Assembly (NCBI GenBank): GCA_016869765.1
Contig: VGES01000024.1
Coordinates: 1 to 52,555, forward strand
Direction of reading: 5' to 3'
Length of the DNA stretch: 52,555 bases
DNA from: Alphaproteobacteria bacterium
GTDB taxonomy: Bacteria > Pseudomonadota > Alphaproteobacteria > SHVP01
Shown here: positions 20,402-52,554 of the stretch, piece after piece
Numbering within the stretch: position 1 is the stretch's first letter
Layout of the letters: each line of letters opens with the position of its first letter
Notes under the pieces: generated by a model
Told to the model about the DNA's origin: nothing
Seen by the model: the letters and a program-made list of their open reading frames with translations, nothing else
Databases searched by the model: none
Position numbers and translations under genes: made by a program

Positions 20402-21526
20402 TTAAGACTTACGCGCCTCCAACAAATACCAATCACCACGCAACATCGCCGTACGATAGGCCGACGGCGCCAACAGGTCCTGCACGTTGCGGCGACGGAA
20501 TCCGGCGTGCTCGGCTTCGGCCACGAGATCCATCTCGAACAATCGCGGCATGAACGGCTCGTCGTTGTAGTGAGCCTCCCAATAGGCGCCGATCTGATCG
20601 AACGGGTCACGCCGGAACTTGTGAAAGCCGGGAACCTCGCTGTGGACGGCCATGCCGCCGGGGGCGAGCAGGCGATAGGTCTCGCGCAGGATCTTCGGCA
20701 CGGCCCGCGCCGAGGTTTCATGGAACAGGATGTGGGAAACGATCAGGTCGAAGAACCCGTCGTCGAAATCCGTTGCCTCGGCCGACTGCTGGACGAAGTG
20801 GACACGCTTGCCGAGCCCCTCCGCTCGCGCGTGCGCGTAGCGCAACTGTGCGGCAGCGACGTCGATGGCGTGAACCTCCGCCTCCGGAAAGGCATCGACG
20901 TAGGGCAGCGTCGAGTGGCCCGCCGCACAACCCATGTCGAGAATGCGACGCGGCGAGAAATCCGGGCGCGTCCGACGCAGGTGCGCGATCACCGTGGCGC
21001 CCATGTCGTCATTGAGCGGTCCGAGCGTTCCCGTCGCATAGCTGTAGACGGCATGATCGTAGAGCGCGCCCGCGAACAGGTCGTCGCTCCCGTGATAGCC
21101 GCCGGGCTGAATGTGGATGTCGACCAAGGTGTTGTACCGCGGGATGGTCACCTTGGGGTCGAGGCGGAGCGATCCCCTGGTGCGTCCCGCGGTGAGTTTT
21201 CGCGCCGCCGTCCGTACCGTCTCGTAGCACCGTTCCGTGGTCTCGCCCGAAGCCGCCCACATCATCTCCTGCTGCGTCCGCTTCAGCGACGAGAACATCT
21301 GATAGACCGGTTCGTTCAGCATCGCGCGCCGAATCTCGTGGCGATTGTGGGGCTTGCGTCCGTGGTCGCGCGAGAACTGCGGCACAACGCGCCCGTCATA
21401 GGCCAAGCGATTGCCGGGCAATACATCGGCAAACAGGTTGCGCTTGAAGCTACGCACGAATTCCTGGCGCGAGGCTTCGTCGTGGGTAGCCCTGGGCAAT
21501 ACCGGGTGCTGAAACTGACTCGACAT
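20402..21526 (-). CDS. Long SAM-dependent methyltransferase, paralog 1 of 4
   Basis: A 374-residue cytoplasmic protein. Residues about 1-165 form a domain I do not recognise, opening QFQHPVLPRATHDEASRQEF and containing LKRTQQEMMW, RLDPKVTIPRY and QPGGYHGSDDLFAGALYD. From about residue 190 a class I (Rossmann) methyltransferase fold follows: motif I ILDMGCAAGH, acidic end of strand 2 in EVHAIDVA, then FDLIVSHILFHETS and LLAPGG. Three paralogs elsewhere in the window share both halves. The ATG at 21526 follows AGGGGAG. The substrate is unknown. It is upstream of dodecin in the same operon, suggesting a link with flavin metabolism, which is only inference. Confidence 0.82.
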   Translation of the reverse strand: MSSQFQHPVLPRATHDEASRQEFVRSFKRNLFADVLPGNRLAYDGRVVPQFSRDHGRKPHNRHEIRRAMLNEPVYQMFSSLKRTQQEMMWAASGETTERCYETVRTAARKLTAGRTRGSLRLDPKVTIPRYNTLVDIHIQPGGYHGSDDLFAGALYDHAVYSYATGTLGPLNDDMGATVIAHLRRTRPDFSPRRILDMGCAAGHSTLPYVDAFPEAEVHAIDVAAAQLRYAHARAEGLGKRVHFVQQSAEATDFDDGFFDLIVSHILFHETSARAVPKILRETYRLLAPGGMAVHSEVPGFHKFRRDPFDQIGAYWEAHYNDEPFMPRLFEMDLVAEAEHAGFRRRNVQDLLAPSAYRTAMLRGDWYLLEARKS

Positions 21527-28970: not shown

Positions 28971-30122
28971 CTACTTCTGCGCCGTTAGCACCCACCACAG
29001 CGCGCCGTAGGCATGCGTCTTGGCGTAGAGCTGGGAGGAGAACACGCTGGGCAGCCGAGTCTCGACGATCGACGGCTTCTTGAAGCCCGCGGCCGCCGCA
29101 ATTTCCGGCATGTCCATATCGCGCATCTTCGTGCGGAACGGCTCGGCGTTGAAGTGCGTCGTCCAATCGCGCTGGAACTGGTCGTAGCTGTCGGGCCAGA
29201 ACTTGTTGAACTCCGGCACGTCGCCGTGGACCATGATTCCGCCCGGCTTCAACACGCGGTAGCACTCGTTGATGACGTTGTAGATCGCCTTGGTCGAGGT
29301 CTCGTGGAACAGGATCAGCGAGGTCACGAGGTCGAACGTCGCGTCGGGGAAATCGGTCTTCTCGGCGTTCTGCTGACTGAAGTGCACGCGTTTGCCGAGC
29401 GCCTCGGCCCGGGCGTGGCCGTAGCGCACCATGGGGGCGCCCAAATCGCAGGCGTAGACCTCGGCCTCGGGGAACCCGTCGACGAGCGCCAGGGTCTGGT
29501 GACCGACGCCGCAGCCGAGATCGAGGATTTTCTTCGGTTTGAAGTTGGGGAAGTGCTTGCGCAGATAATCGACGGCGGTCGCGCCGACGTCATCGGTCAT
29601 CGGCCCCTGCCCGCCCATGCCGTACTGGTAGGCCCCGAGGTCGTAGAGGGCGCCGGCGAAGACGTCGTCCTTCTCGATCTCCGAGTGATAGCCGCCCGGT
29701 TGGCAGTGGATGTGGATCTCGCTGTTGTATCTCGGGATCGCGAGCTTCGGGTTGAGCCGCAAGGTGCCGAGTTTCTTCTTACGCCCGGCGATGTCGCTCG
29801 CTTTCGTCCTGAGGCGATCGAGTTGCCGGCCGGTGCGCTCGGTCAGCACGTCCCACATCATTTCCTGACCCGATCGGTTGAGCGAACTCCAGGTTCTCCA
29901 GAACGGATCGGCATGCATGGCATCGGTCACCTCGCGCCGATTCTGCGGCGCGTGCCCCGTGCGTTTGCGGAATTCGCCCTTGGCCCGGCGGTCGTAGACC
30001 GTCCGATTGCCCGGCTGGAGTTGAGTCAGCACATGCACCTTGTAGCTGGTGACGAATTCCTGGCGTGCCGACTCGTCGTGGTTGAGGTCGGGCAGCATCG
30101 GGTGGGCGAATTGGCCTTTCAT
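28971..30122 (-). CDS. Long SAM-dependent methyltransferase, paralog 2 of 4
   Basis: A 383-residue protein with the same two-part layout as the paralog at 20402-21526. The N-terminal domain starts QFAHPMLPDLNHDESARQEF and has LNRSGQEMMW, LRLNPKLAIPRYN and QPGGYHSEIEKDDVFAGALYD. The methyltransferase part has motif I ILDLGCGVGH, EVYACDLGAPMVRYGHARA, SQQNAEKTDF, LVTSLILFHETS and LKPGG. The ATG at 30122 follows GAGGAGATG. It converges with the OYE/FadH-like flavoenzyme. The conserved block in which the likely cofactor and substrate sites sit (RYGHARAEALGKRVHFSQQ) is nearly the same as in paralogs 1 and 3, so the proteins probably share the reaction type. Substrate unknown. Confidence 0.85.
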   Translation of the reverse strand: MKGQFAHPMLPDLNHDESARQEFVTSYKVHVLTQLQPGNRTVYDRRAKGEFRKRTGHAPQNRREVTDAMHADPFWRTWSSLNRSGQEMMWDVLTERTGRQLDRLRTKASDIAGRKKKLGTLRLNPKLAIPRYNSEIHIHCQPGGYHSEIEKDDVFAGALYDLGAYQYGMGGQGPMTDDVGATAVDYLRKHFPNFKPKKILDLGCGVGHQTLALVDGFPEAEVYACDLGAPMVRYGHARAEALGKRVHFSQQNAEKTDFPDATFDLVTSLILFHETSTKAIYNVINECYRVLKPGGIMVHGDVPEFNKFWPDSYDQFQRDWTTHFNAEPFRTKMRDMDMPEIAAAAGFKKPSIVETRLPSVFSSQLYAKTHAYGALWWVLTAQK

Positions 30123-30269: not shown

Positions 30270-30938
30270 ATGACCCGAGTCCTCTCGCGGCGCCTGTTCG
30301 AGGGTCAGGCCCTTCATACGCTGGGCCTGACGGCGCTGCTCGCCCTCGCTTACGGCGCGGCAGGGCTGCTCGACCTCACCGACCGGGTTGCAGCCTGGTA
30401 CTGGGGTGCGATCGGCGTTGCGGTTTTTCACCAGGTCTACGTGTGGCTGTGCTGGAGGAGCGAGCTGCACGGACGGCACCTGACGCGCCTGCTCGGGCGG
30501 GGAGCATTCCCCGTATACGCCGTGGGCTTCGTGACCCTAGTGCTCGTTCGTTTCGGCGTGCTGTTTCCGCTCGCCGCAATCGATCGCGAGTCGCTCTCGC
30601 TGCCCACGACCGTGCGCGAGATCGCGGTCGGCGTGCTCGCGATCCCGGTGATCTACGTGTTCTATTCGGTGCTTCGCTACTTCACGTTCCCCCGCGCGTT
30701 CGGGAACGATCACTTCCTGCCCGACGCCGCGGCGCGGCCCTTCGAGCGGCGTGGCATTTTCCGCTACGCCGACAACGCCATGTACACCTACGGCTTCCTG
30801 TTCGCCTGGTTGCCCGGCCTGTGGTGGGGCTCGCTCGCGGCCCTCGCCGCGGCGGCGTTCAACCACGCCTATATCTGGGTGCATTACTATGCCACCGAGC
30901 GGCCGGACATCGCCGTCATCTATGGGCGACGAACTTGA
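30270..30938 (+). CDS. Predicted membrane methyltransferase (PEMT/ICMT-like)
   Basis: A 222-residue protein with at least five hydrophobic segments. The C-terminal part (GIFRYADNAMYTYGFLFAW, then AFNHAYIWVHYYATERPDI) has the pattern of the phosphatidylethanolamine N-methyltransferase / isoprenylcysteine carboxyl methyltransferase group: a Tyr-x-x-N-x-Met-Tyr block followed by a His and an acidic-Arg-Pro motif that binds SAM. The function (lipid or protein methylation) is not settled. Its last 43 bases before the altered stop are repeated at 32121-32163 (see the direct-repeat entries), and the copy at 32167 carries what was probably the original stop. Confidence 0.7.
   Translation: MTRVLSRRLFEGQALHTLGLTALLALAYGAAGLLDLTDRVAAWYWGAIGVAVFHQVYVWLCWRSELHGRHLTRLLGRGAFPVYAVGFVTLVLVRFGVLFPLAAIDRESLSLPTTVREIAVGVLAIPVIYVFYSVLRYFTFPRAFGNDHFLPDAAARPFERRGIFRYADNAMYTYGFLFAWLPGLWWGSLAALAAAAFNHAYIWVHYYATERPDIAVIYGRRT
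30889..30931. repeat. 43-bp direct repeat, left copy
   Basis: This stretch starts ATGCCACCGAGCGG and ends TATGGGCGACG. It lies inside the 3' end of the membrane methyltransferase-like gene and is identical, by eye, to 32121-32163. The spacing from left copy to right copy start is 1232 bases and the serine-hydrolase pseudogene fills the interval. Confidence 0.85.
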
Positions 30939-30945
30939 TTGAGGC

Positions 30946-32079
30946 ATGATCTTCGACCGACGGCGCGTCCTCGCTGGCAGCGCGGCAGCGGCGACCATGC
31001 TGCTCGGTCGGTTTCCGGCCGCTCAGGAATCGCTTTCGCCGTCACCCGCCGAGCGCGAGAAGATGGCGGAGGCCGCGGAAGCCTTTCGCAAGGAGTACAA
31101 TGTCCCTGGCCTTGCCATTGCCTTTACCCGCGGCGGACAGTTCGTCCACGAAGCCGCGTTCGGGTTGGCCGACCGCGTGAGCGGCGAAACGTTGACGCCA
31201 GAGCACCGCTTTCGCATCGCCAGTATCTCCAAGCCGATCACAGCGGTCGCGATCTTCACGTTGATCGAAGCCGGCAAGCTCGGCCTCGACGATCGCGTAC
31301 TTGGACGCGAGGGCGTCCTCGGCGAAGTCTATGGGCCGATCTCTTCCGATTCGCGCTTGAGCCGCATCACGGTCGACCACCTATTGACCCACACCGCCGG
31401 CGGTTGGCCCAACGATCGTAGCGACCCGATGTTCTACGAGAGCAAGACCGAACAGGCGGCGCTGATCGAGGCGACGCTTTCCAATCGGCCTCCGACGCGC
31501 GACCCCGGTACGCAACACGCCTACTCCAACTTCGGCTACTGCCTGCTCGGCCGCGTGATCGAGCGGGTGAGCGGCTCCCCCTATGCCGACTAAGTCAAGC
31601 GGGTGCTACTGGCGCCGGTCGGGATCGGCGACATGGAGATCGCCGGCAATACGCTCGCGGAGCGCCAGCCACGGGAGGTCCGTTACCACATTACCCGCAG
31701 CGGCGACGCCTACACGATGAACGTGCGCCGCATGGATTCGCATGGCGGCTGGATCGCCAGCGCTGGCTCGCTCGCGCGCTTTGCCGCCGCCGCCGACGGT
31801 CGCTGGATTCCGCGACTGCTCAGGCCCGAGACCGTCACGCAGATGTCGGCCACCAACGAACTCCATCCAAACTACGCCCGCGGCTGGCGGGTCAACGCCC
31901 GCGGCAATGCCTGGCACACCGGCAGCCTCCCAGGTACCGCGACAATGATGGTACGTACCGCGAGCGGCCTCACTTGGGCCGCTCTCTGCAACACCCGGGT
32001 CGACGAGTCGACGCTCGGGCGCGACCTCGACCGCCCAATGTGGACAATGGCAAAGGCCGTGCCGCGCTGGCGCGCCTAG
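30946..32079 (+). pseudogene. Serine hydrolase (class C beta-lactamase family), broken by a stop codon
   Basis: Reading on through one stop would give about 377 residues of a beta-lactamase-fold serine hydrolase/esterase (penicillin-binding-protein-like). It has a TAT-like signal (MIFDRRRVLAGSAAAATMLLG), the nucleophile motif SISK (S-x-x-K, about residue 90), YSN (in HAYSNFGYCLLG) and a C-terminal HTG in WHTGSLPGT. At 31591-31593 the frame has TAA after SPYAD and then continues VKRVLLAPVGIGDM in the same frame; a tyrosine codon (TAC/TAT to TAA) is the simplest ancestor. The truncated 215-residue product would lack HTG and would be inactive. The whole copy is bracketed by 43-bp direct repeats. 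Confidence 0.8.
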
Positions 32080-32120
32080 CGCCCGAACGGCAAAGCGGCG
32101 TTCAACGATGCGTCACCACC

Positions 32121-32163
32121 ATGCCACCGAGCGGCCGGACATCGCCGTCATCTATGGGCGACG
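32121..32163. repeat. 43-bp direct repeat, right copy
   Basis: Same sequence as 30889-30931. It carries in frame the end of the membrane methyltransferase (YGRR then TGA at 32165-32167), and, on the other strand, the last codons and stop (32148-32150) of the DUF1194 gene. This shows that the two genes once overlapped convergently here and that the left copy is the added one. Confidence 0.85.
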
Positions 32164-32876
32164 TTGAGCGGCGCCGGCGCGGTGGAGATTTCCCGGGCGA
32201 GCTTGGCGATCAACGCTCGCGACACATCGGCAAAACCATCGGCCACGACGACGAACGAGCCGGCGCCGCCCGCGACGAACCGCACGAAGTAGTCCTCGAG
32301 CGTGCGCGAGCCGCGAAAGGGCAGGAACGCATCTTCCTTGATCGCCAGGGCATTGATCGTGACGCCTGCTTTGACCGCGTCGTCGCGCGCCGCCGTCACC
32401 TCGCGGCCCTGGTTGTTGATGCCATCGCCGGAAACGTCGATCACCCGTCGCTCGCCCTCGAAACCGTTGTTTTCGAACGCGGCGACCGCACGATCGAGGG
32501 CATCGCTGATCGAGGTCCCGCCCGACAGCACCGTTCGGCTGCCGCGCTGGAGCCGTTCGCCGAAGAGCTGCGCGCTCGCCAGCCCGTCGATCTTCATCCA
32601 GTCGACGACGACCTGGGTCGAGCCGGGCCCGGCCCATCGCATCAGGGTGACGGCAATCGCCCTGTGCGGGCCGCTCGTGATCGCTTTCTGGACCACGGGA
32701 TCGAGGAACGCTTCGGCGTAGCCCCGCATCTGCAGCGTGTACTCGCGGCTGTCGATCGAATCGGAGGCATCGACCGCGAGTACGAGTTCGAGATCGACCG
32801 CCTCGGCCCGTGCCGTCGACACGAGCGCGAAACAGAACAGCAGCGCGAGAAGTGAGCGGCGGATCGGTGCCGACAC
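32148..32876 (-). CDS. DUF1194 family protein (von Willebrand A-like)
   Basis: A 242-residue secreted protein. The GTG at 32876 gives a signal peptide (VSAPIRRSLLALLFCFALVSTARAEA) and comes 7 bases after the stop of the upstream kinase, so it is probably co-transcribed. The mature part has an A-domain (VWA) fold with a metal-ion-dependent adhesion site: LVLAVDASDSID (D-x-S-x-S), and VIDVSGDGINNQG as the Asp-rich loop. DUF1194 proteins are conserved in alphaproteobacteria, presumably periplasmic; function is unknown. Its 3' end lies within the right direct repeat. Confidence 0.85.
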   Translation of the reverse strand: MSAPIRRSLLALLFCFALVSTARAEAVDLELVLAVDASDSIDSREYTLQMRGYAEAFLDPVVQKAITSGPHRAIAVTLMRWAGPGSTQVVVDWMKIDGLASAQLFGERLQRGSRTVLSGGTSISDALDRAVAAFENNGFEGERRVIDVSGDGINNQGREVTAARDDAVKAGVTINALAIKEDAFLPFRGSRTLEDYFVRFVAGGAGSFVVVADGFADVSRALIAKLAREISTAPAPLNVAHR

Positions 32877-32883
32877 GCCTGCC

Positions 32884-33876
32884 CTAGAGCAGCTTCGCGT
32901 CGGCGACGTGTTTGCGCACGGAACGCGCGAACCAATCGAGTCCCGGAAAGTGGAACTGCACGTGGCCGATGGCGTTGATCGCGAGCGAGAAGCCACACAG
33001 GTATTGGAATTCCTTGGCCACCAGGAACAAGGGGATGTGTTTCTTTTCGATCGCCGACAGCGGACGAATCGTTTCGTAGCCTGCGAGAAACTCCTCCCAC
33101 AGCGCCACGGGGAGGTTGTTCTTTTCGATCGACCAGCGCCAGCTCATCAGTTCTTGGGCAAAGTGGTCACGGCCACAGGCATCGAAATCCATGATCGTGA
33201 TGCGTTCGTCTTTGGTGATGAACGCATTGTGAATATGAATGTCGCCGTGGATGGCGCCGTTCGGCACCTCGCCCCGCTTGACCACGTCCTCGTAGGCCGC
33301 GGGCAGCGCCTCGGCCACGCGACCGTAGAACGCGAGGTCGTCGGGTCGGTGCGCGACCAGCGCCTTGAGCCGCGGGAACGTTCGCCGGACCGGACCGACG
33401 TGGTCGATCGGCTTGTCCTTCTTCGGCTTGTAGGACGGCGACAGGCGATGGATGTGGCCGAAGATCTCGCCCATGCGCCGCGCGATCGACGCCGTCGGGT
33501 TCTTCGAATAGACCCGTCCATCGACCCAGCGGAACATGGCGACTTCGCGCGACCCCTCGGGCGAGGGCACCCGCATACCCGGGGCGCCGTCCTTGGTTCG
33601 CAGGGGCACCGGCACGGGAATCTGGTGCTTCAACAGGTGTTCGAGGAATTCGACCTCGTACTCGACGCCGTCCGGCGTCCGCTGGCCGACGCGCCACAGC
33701 TGGATGACGAACTGCTCGCCGCCCGCCCGCACCAAATAGAAGTCGTTCATGCCACGATGCAGGAGTTCGCAGCGGAACGGATCGCGCAGGCCATAGGTGC
33801 GCTGCACTTCATGGCCGAGGGCCTCGGCGTCGATGATCGAATGGGCGGCGGGGAGAATATCGTCGTGGGCGTCCAT
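32884..33876 (-). CDS. APH/choline-kinase-fold phosphotransferase, copy A
   Basis: A 330-residue kinase-like protein of the aminoglycoside phosphotransferase / homoserine-kinase-II fold. The catalytic loop is GAIHGDIHIHNAF (H-G-D-x4-N) and the metal-binding loop is ITIMDFDACG, with DFD replacing DFG, as usual for this family. A Gly-rich N-lobe (GMNDFYLVRAGGEQFVIQLW) precedes. Such proteins phosphorylate small alcohols (choline, homoserine, aminoglycosides, fructosamines); the actual substrate is unknown. It is the second gene of a tandem duplicate, starting 10 bases after the stop of copy B, and is followed by DUF1194. Confidence 0.83.
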   Translation of the reverse strand: MDAHDDILPAAHSIIDAEALGHEVQRTYGLRDPFRCELLHRGMNDFYLVRAGGEQFVIQLWRVGQRTPDGVEYEVEFLEHLLKHQIPVPVPLRTKDGAPGMRVPSPEGSREVAMFRWVDGRVYSKNPTASIARRMGEIFGHIHRLSPSYKPKKDKPIDHVGPVRRTFPRLKALVAHRPDDLAFYGRVAEALPAAYEDVVKRGEVPNGAIHGDIHIHNAFITKDERITIMDFDACGRDHFAQELMSWRWSIEKNNLPVALWEEFLAGYETIRPLSAIEKKHIPLFLVAKEFQYLCGFSLAINAIGHVQFHFPGLDWFARSVRKHVADAKLL

Positions 33877-40799: not shown

Positions 40800-41450
40800 C
40801 TAGAGCAACCTCTGCAACGTGGCGAGCGCGCCGATCCCGACGAAGAACATGGCGCCGAGCCGGATGGTCATCCGATCCTGCATTCGCACGATCTCCTGGC
40901 GCAACGTCACCACGGCCTGATCGAGATCTTTGCGCAACAACGCGTCGGCCTGTTCGAGGTCTCGGCGCAGGTCCGCGATCGCCTGCTCCACATCCTTGCG
41001 CAGATCTGCGATCGCCTGCTCCACATCCTTGCGCAGATCTACGATCGCCTGCTCGAAGTCTTTGCGCAGGTCCGCATTCGCCTGCTCCAAGTCTTTGCGC
41101 AGGTCCGCATTCGCCTGCTCCAATTCTTTGCGCAGGTCTGCGATCGCCTCTTTTACCTCTTTGCGTAGCATCGCTAGGTCCTGCTGGACGTCCTTGCGCA
41201 GCAATGCGATGTCCTGTTGGACATCCTGGCGCAGCAACGCGATGTCCTGTTGGACATCCTTGCGCAGTAACGCGATGTCCTGTTGGACATCTTTGCGCAG
41301 CAACAGGCTCGCCTGCTCGATGTCGGGCTTGGTCGCTACTTCGACCAGAATCATCTCGGTCATGATCGCGGCGTGCGCCTCCGCCTGGGCGCGGTCGACG
41401 CCAGCGTCCTGGAGCCGCCGCGCGTATTCGAGGGTATCGAGGATTCTCAT
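40800..41450 (-). CDS. Hendecad-repeat coiled-coil membrane protein (DUF1640/MCUR1-like)
   Basis: A 216-residue protein. Residues 1-48 (MRILDTLEYARRLQDAGVDRAQAEAHAAIM) resemble the start of CCDC90/MCUR1-like DUF1640 proteins. Residues 49-180 are 12 full copies of an 11-residue unit such as LLRKDVQQDIA or DLRKDVEQAIA. A period of 11 gives a long, nearly straight coiled coil. A C-terminal membrane segment (RLGAMFFVGIGALATLQRL) anchors it, so it is probably a rod projecting from a membrane. In mitochondria this family is tied to calcium uptake or complex assembly; the bacterial role is not known. ATG 41450 is the first start that gives the family N-terminus. Confidence 0.8.
   Translation of the reverse strand: MRILDTLEYARRLQDAGVDRAQAEAHAAIMTEMILVEVATKPDIEQASLLLRKDVQQDIALLRKDVQQDIALLRQDVQQDIALLRKDVQQDLAMLRKEVKEAIADLRKELEQANADLRKDLEQANADLRKDFEQAIVDLRKDVEQAIADLRKDVEQAIADLRRDLEQADALLRKDLDQAVVTLRQEIVRMQDRMTIRLGAMFFVGIGALATLQRLL
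40911..41306 (-). repeat. 33-bp tandem repeat array coding for the coiled coil
   Basis: Twelve 33-base units encode the 11-residue repeats of the coiled-coil protein. Units near 41210-41306 are almost identical at the DNA level (GATGTCCTG TTGGACATCC type) while others have drifted. Such tandem arrays can change copy number by slippage or recombination. Confidence 0.85.
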
Positions 41451-51384: not shown

Positions 51385-52554
51385 ATGAACAGCCTCGGAA
51401 TCGCCACGTGGTCGGGTTTCGGCCGCCACACCATCTCGCCCCTCACCGATCACGACGAGTCGAGCCGGATGGAGTTCACCATCAACCTGTTCCGGGCGCT
51501 CAACGGCATCCAGGCGCACCACAGGACGATCTACGACAGGAAGGTCGAGCCCGAATTCAAGCGTCAGCACCGGCGTCCGCCCAAGGACCGCCACGAGGTG
51601 CGCAAGGCCATGCTCAAGGACTCGACCTTCCAGGTCTGGAGCCACCTCCGCGTTTTGGCCCAGCAACAGTTGTTCGAGAACGCGCGCATCTCGGTCGATC
51701 GCCAGCTCGACACCTTGATCGGCAAGGCGCGCTCCAAGTCGCGCGGCAAGATCAAGGGCTCGCTCGAACTCGACGCCAAATTCGAGGTGCCGCGTTACCA
51801 GCGGCCCTTCGACATGCACTGGATGCCAGGGAGTTATTTCACCGAGTTCGCCGAGAAGGACGACGTCGCCGCCGGTGCCCTGTACGACTTCGGCGGGCTC
51901 TACGTGCTGACCAACGGCATGCTGGGCAAATACAACGACGGCGCCGGCTATGCGGTGGTGCGCTATCTGCGCGAGAAGTTCCCCAAGTTCTCACCCAAGG
52001 CCGTGCTCGATCAGGGTTGCACCGTCGGCCACAATACGCTGCCCTTCAAGGACGCCTGGCCCAAGGCCGAGGTCCACGCCATCGACATCGGCGCCCCGGT
52101 CCTGCGCTATGGCCATGCCCGGGCCGAAGACCTCGGCTACGCCGTCCACTTCTCGCAGCAGAACGCCGAGAAGACCCACTACAAGAGCGGCATGTTCGAC
52201 CTGATCGTGTCGACCATGTTCCTGCACGAGACCTCCTACAAGGCCGTCTACAACATCGTCAAAGAGAACTACCGGCTCTTGAAGCCGGGCGGAATCATGG
52301 TCCACGTCGAGCAGCCGCCGTTCGCCATGGCCTCCTCGCCGTTCGATGCGTTCACCGGCGACTGGGACACGCACAACAACGAGGAGCCGTTCTGGGGCCC
52401 GATGCACGACATGGACTTGGCCGACGTCGCCGTCAAAAGTGGCTTCAAGCGGGCGAACGTGTTCCAGGAGTTCGCACCGATGGTCACGCCGGTGGCGGGC
52501 GACAACTACGCGCTGGGCAAGGGCCGCTGGTTCGTGTTCGGCGCCACGAAGTAG
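51385..52554 (+). CDS. Long SAM-dependent methyltransferase, paralog 4 of 4
   Basis: A 389-residue protein, the most divergent of the four. The N-terminal domain starts MNSLGIATWSGFGRHTI and has LTDHDESSRMEF, YDRKVEPEFKRQHRRPPKDR, HEVRKAMLKD and ELDAKFEVPRYQ, keeping the pattern of the others. The methyltransferase part has VLDQGCTVGHNTLPFKD, EVHAIDIGAPVLRYGHARA, SQQNAEKTHYKSGMFDL, STMFLHETS and LKPGGIMVH. The block MPGSYFTEFAEKDDVAAGALYDF replaces the QPGGYH-type block of paralogs 1 and 2. ATG 51385 follows ACGGAGTCGCC (GGAG). It follows the FAD oxidoreductase pair in the same direction and may belong to the same transcript. The window ends one base after its stop. Confidence 0.84.
   Translation: MNSLGIATWSGFGRHTISPLTDHDESSRMEFTINLFRALNGIQAHHRTIYDRKVEPEFKRQHRRPPKDRHEVRKAMLKDSTFQVWSHLRVLAQQQLFENARISVDRQLDTLIGKARSKSRGKIKGSLELDAKFEVPRYQRPFDMHWMPGSYFTEFAEKDDVAAGALYDFGGLYVLTNGMLGKYNDGAGYAVVRYLREKFPKFSPKAVLDQGCTVGHNTLPFKDAWPKAEVHAIDIGAPVLRYGHARAEDLGYAVHFSQQNAEKTHYKSGMFDLIVSTMFLHETSYKAVYNIVKENYRLLKPGGIMVHVEQPPFAMASSPFDAFTGDWDTHNNEEPFWGPMHDMDLADVAVKSGFKRANVFQEFAPMVTPVAGDNYALGKGRWFVFGATK

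Follow-up and report, generated by a model that had tools for sequence, protein, structure and literature searches.

Gene organization at the methyltransferase–DUF1194 junction

The window (the whole 52,555 bp stretch of DNA that was analysed, contig VGES01000024.1) contains two convergent genes with a third gene lying between them. The first, on the plus strand at 30270–30938, encodes a PEMT-like membrane methyltransferase of the phospholipid/isoprenylcysteine-methyltransferase type (PF04191; E 4e-7), which is intact and ends ...IYGRRT*. Its relatives terminate ...(T/V)E(K/R)PDM..IYG-X, and because they too end just past PDM..IYG, we judged the C-terminus of the protein to be intact as well. 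The second gene, on the minus strand at 32148–32885, encodes DUF1194, a VWA-type secreted protein (PF06707; E 3e-65), whose C-terminal length is typical among its relatives. The gene between them, on the plus strand at 30946–32079, encodes a serine hydrolase with a beta-lactamase/AmpC-like fold and a Tat-type N-terminus (DRRRVLAG), and carries one in-frame stop.

No second copy of the PEMT-like methyltransferase was found in this genome. Large SAM-methyltransferase paralogues of one type are located in the window at 28971–30122 and 51385–52554, and also at 20402 and 39652; members of this type recur elsewhere in the genome, at L096 (8503 and 9637) and L091 (8574).

A 43 bp direct repeat flanks the hydrolase gene

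A sequence-only reading of this DNA had placed the serine hydrolase between two copies of a 43-base repeat. Direct comparison within the window bore this out: positions 30889–30931 and 32121–32163, both read on the plus strand, are identical over 43 bp without mismatch, and the repeat reaches 46 bp if one mismatch, at 30886/32118, is tolerated. At either length, it far exceeds the normal target duplication of an insertion sequence, as the same reading had stated. In ten third-order Markov simulations of the window, the longest exact repeat was 16–18 bp, and a repeat of 43 bp is therefore far beyond chance. When as many as 3 mismatches were allowed, just these two sites matched the 43-mer in the whole genome (3.99 Mb, 164 contigs). 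Elsewhere in the window, at 40860–41357, a tandem array of eleven 33-bp units lies inside a coiled-coil gene (40800–41450, minus strand).

The left copy holds the last codons of the methyltransferase gene. Its location inside that gene had been read correctly, but the methyltransferase stop comes one codon later than in the right copy, and not two, as had been claimed. The right copy would close the methyltransferase frame as GRR* (TGA at 32165–32167), and its final 16 bases supply, on the minus strand, the closing codons of DUF1194 together with its stop (32148–32150); both assignments agree with the earlier reading. Since the repeat carries the 3′ overlap of the two convergent genes, the ends of both are intact. 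The C-termini of DUF1194 proteins are too variable among relatives to tell which copy of the repeat is native. When we merged the two copies in silico, the methyltransferase retained a coherent end (GRR*) and DUF1194 was unchanged, which makes insertion at the convergent junction a sensible model. The 3′ overlap of the two genes is ~20 bp, so that only insertions duplicating at least that length spare both of them. Sparing both overlapping genes may thus be the selective reason for a long repeat, in which case no special enzyme would be required.

Homology upstream of the right copy

Immediately upstream of the left copy, the methyltransferase segment at 30852–30888 (plus strand) has what appears to be a decayed counterpart at 32095–32120 (plus strand), in the position expected for the left part of a longer right copy. 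The two regions have in common an exact 12-mer, GCGGCGTTCAAC, beginning at 30852 and 32095, respectively. After the 12-mer, the right side shows an 11-nt deletion and several substitutions, with CACCACCAT standing against CATTACTAT in the methyltransferase gene; these two strings have three differences, all of which are transitions. The chance of finding such a 12-mer at a similar offset, estimated from random pairs drawn from the window, is ~3.5e-4. The p values from anchored alignment were 0.006–0.02 over 40–80 bp and 0.12 over 120 bp.

The decayed block indicates that the duplication was probably longer than a 43-bp target duplication. The alignment is suggestive, although not conclusive, of a duplicated segment of ~70–80 bp whose left part has since decayed, as opposed to a clean 43 bp. 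A perfect 43-bp block adjoining a strongly decayed one requires gene conversion, divergence of the donor, or a chance match upstream. The 3′ end of the methyltransferase gene has certainly been duplicated around the hydrolase, and the earlier proposal of an insertion with duplication of the target is compatible with the locus; the decayed homology speaks mildly against a clean 43-bp target duplication made in one step.

The serine hydrolase gene and its stop codon

With the in-frame stop read through as Tyr, the hydrolase matches PF00144 with an E value of 4e-62 and a score of 210.7 bits, against a curated cut-off of 27. A true class C beta-lactamase was ruled out (67 bits against a cut-off of 415). 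The stop is a TAA at 31591–31593 (plus strand), where one relative (L026) has TAC (Tyr) and another (L027) has TTC (Phe). A relative that is 73% identical and comes from another family has Tyr at this position. Relative to this protein, dN/dS is 0.20/0.85 before the TAA and 0.19/0.88 after it; nonsynonymous change is not in excess downstream of the stop, and no decay was seen in the gene beyond the single TAA. The equal ratios on either side imply either a very recent stop or an error in the sequence. The gene had been called a pseudogene, and the stop is indeed present; however, that designation depends on one base, with dN/dS unchanged past it.

The hydrolase gene starts 7 bp behind the methyltransferase stop, as an operon partner might, and its codon use is near-native (22nd percentile) and not clearly foreign. 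Given this spacing and codon use, the hydrolase may not be a newcomer. The account favoured below would make it the newcomer at the methyltransferase/DUF1194 junction.

Search for mobile-element features, relatives, and an empty site

The hydrolase gene is the only gene between the repeats. As the sequence-only reading had noted, there is no transposase or integrase: the scanned genes lying within 18.3–45.2 kb carry no recombinase or transposase domain, and the four tyrosine-recombinase matches in the genome are all on other contigs. No palindromic core was detected in the repeat (p 0.61). The segment has no clear terminal inverted repeats, the end-to-end inverted similarity being marginal in a single test (p 0.044). 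Insertion sequences and composite transposons likewise have direct repeats flanking the insert; however, theirs are roughly 2–14 bp, compared with ~43 bp here, and they differ from this locus in having a transposase and clear terminal inverted repeats.

The methyltransferase was absent, by protein search, from nine genomes of the family and from the sampled members of the order. A DNA search of 96 relatives, protein searches against the order and the class sample, and the contigs of GTDB genomes yielded no close homologue. The best relatives of the methyltransferase elsewhere are about 36–57% identical and are not syntenic. For the hydrolase, the nearest relatives belong to other families within the class; their genes have unrelated surroundings and no flanking repeats. 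A plasmid search for the hydrolase returned matches that were all <60% identical.

Other repeated 3′ ends in the genome

Across 2.44 Mb of the same genome, a repeat scan combined with gene calls identified three further loci at which the 3′ end of a gene is echoed downstream, at 88–93% identity, with one or two genes between. At L089:8644–9901 (contig C15), the last 74 bp of a short-chain dehydrogenase gene recur 1.18 kb downstream with 89% identity, and the one gene enclosed by the repeats encodes a methyltransferase and has very foreign codon use. At L138:2102–3759 (contig C9), ~140 bp that run from the end of a membrane-protein gene into the sequence downstream of it recur at 93% identity beyond a related gene. 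At L153:11839–14953 (contig C14), about 95–101 bp from the 3′ region of an alpha/beta-hydrolase gene recur at 88% identity ~3 kb away; this echo ends 55 bp short of the stop, and the interval holds a TPR gene and an FkbM methyltransferase gene whose codon use is foreign. No motif is common to the echo repeats, or to the 43-bp repeat and the other repeat-flanked loci. Two of the echo loci adjoin runs of related genes, in keeping with partial tandem duplication and replacement.

The count leaves out a fifth, weak echo (L106; 33 bp, 85%), and L091, L086, and L112 were rejected as further echoes because they proved to be either pairs of related genes or a palindromic element between genes. A single 5′-end echo (L134) was seen, versus four or five at 3′ ends, which is too few for a 3′ preference to be claimed. 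Related genes lying next to each other, tRNA genes, and palindromic elements between genes account for most other repeats in the 2.44 Mb. At L159:2183–3429, two tRNA-Arg genes (anticodons acg and tcg), 91% alike and 1.17 kb apart, enclose two small reading frames that look toxin-antitoxin-like by eye only.

The genome also encodes a LigD-Ku fusion: a single 714-aa frame near 92 kb on contig C6 (L095:1150–3294, minus strand) combines a LigD phosphoesterase domain and an ATP-dependent ligase domain with a Ku domain. End joining should therefore be available to this organism.

Origin of the repeat-flanked hydrolase

The explanation that we prefer, at about even odds, is that the locus is the scar of ordinary recombination, of the type known as "insertion with long target duplication", and not an autonomous mobile element. 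A segment bearing the hydrolase would have been placed between the methyltransferase gene and DUF1194, and the last ~45–80 bp of the methyltransferase gene would have been duplicated in the process. The two routes that seem most likely are homology-assisted integration, in which a circular or tandem molecule carrying a methyltransferase 3′ end beside the hydrolase would cross into the resident 3′ end, and an equivalent partial tandem duplication. After either of them, the shared gene end would be present twice in direct orientation. In favour of this account are the exact, genome-unique repeat at the gene end, the two intact neighbours with their coherent merged junction, the decayed homology beside the right copy (expected if a longer piece of the methyltransferase gene took part), the lack of recombinase and transposase genes nearby, the repeat-free settings of the hydrolase's nearest relatives, the three other 3′-end echoes, and published precedents. 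The operon-like spacing and near-native codon use of the hydrolase count against it, as does the perfect block adjoining a strongly decayed one. The event presumably persisted because the repeat keeps the ends of both convergent, overlapping genes intact. The hydrolase would afterwards have acquired one nonsense mutation, unless the base is an error.

A possible but clearly less favoured origin is the capture of a hydrolase fragment, in one step, at a staggered double-strand break, where 43-nt single-stranded ends would be filled in and joined by Ku/LigD to leave a clean, long target duplication. The LigD-Ku fusion could serve such a reaction, the right boundary requires no microhomology, and, as the repeat spans the 3′ overlap of the two genes, both would be spared by a long duplication only. 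However, the role of the fusion protein is deduced from the presence of its gene only, and the homology upstream of the right copy, with its improbable 12-mer and nothing but three transitions in the adjoining string, is not expected from such a capture. The right copy could also be the 3′ tail of an older tandem duplicate of the methyltransferase gene, most of which was lost or replaced while gene conversion held 43 bp identical; the decay upstream of the right copy would fit this. Tails lying beyond series of related genes at L089 and L138 offer a precedent; yet the genome has no second methyltransferase copy and the locus no array of related genes, and gene conversion would have to be confined to 43 bp, so that we regard this history as rather improbable.

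The sequence-only reading had also raised a cassette mobilised in trans, or an att-like pair. Attachment sites classically lie at the 3′ end of a gene and restore that gene, as the position of this repeat would allow, and the repeats could accordingly be pictured as attL and attR of a mini-element mobilised by a tyrosine or serine recombinase that targets gene 3′ ends, a picture to which the further 3′-end echoes lend something. We nevertheless consider it very unlikely: no recombinase is encoded in the 1.2 kb or its neighbourhood, and the repeat is unique in the genome, lacks a palindromic core, and shares no motif with the other loci. Known integrative elements at gene 3′ ends resemble this locus in that one side carries the restored gene end and the opposite side a repeat of it, but differ from it in these same respects, namely recombinase, core palindrome, and second site, and the segment here is only 1.2 kb. 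Scarcely any weight attaches, finally, to an assembly artefact or a mixture of strains. The draft is fragmented (164 contigs) and is most likely a metagenome-assembled genome, in which a lone stop could be a base error. Ordinary reads are, however, far longer than a 43-bp repeat, and the decayed upstream block and the distinct codon that ends each copy are unlike a duplicated overlap.

Comparison with known insertions

Judged from its sequence, the anatomy of the locus is best read as matching insertion with long target duplication, described in Helicobacter pylori (Nobusato et al. 2000, following the accounts in PMC1643837 and PMC3031569), although membership is incomplete. In those accounts, as at this locus, a gene lies between direct copies of host sequence that far exceed the target duplication of a transposon, and the insert has no transposase. 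The H. pylori cases differ in having been shown by comparison of strains and in frequently involving restriction-modification genes, whereas the present one involves a hydrolase with a beta-lactamase fold and is read from one genome. Transposed single genes in Arabidopsis are flanked by gene-derived direct repeats of >30 bp, a pattern attributed to tandem duplicates that recombined and a circle that was reinserted (PMC2869330). The flanking repeats come from gene sequence in both instances; Arabidopsis, however, is a eukaryote, and its donor and target sites have been identified, unlike those of the hydrolase locus.

A broader and, in our estimation, unlikely proposal is that single genes have been acquired repeatedly in this genome, immediately downstream of host genes, by a process that copies 40–140 bp of the host 3′ end to a position beyond the newcomer, perhaps via LigD-Ku, as a transposase-free and gene-sparing form of acquisition. 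This proposal would cover four cases in the 2.44 Mb, two of which have cargo of clearly foreign codon use. If such events were recurrent, in the absence of matching transposases, they would account for the entry of single genes into dense genomes with the neighbours left unbroken, and for the position of acquired genes immediately behind host genes.
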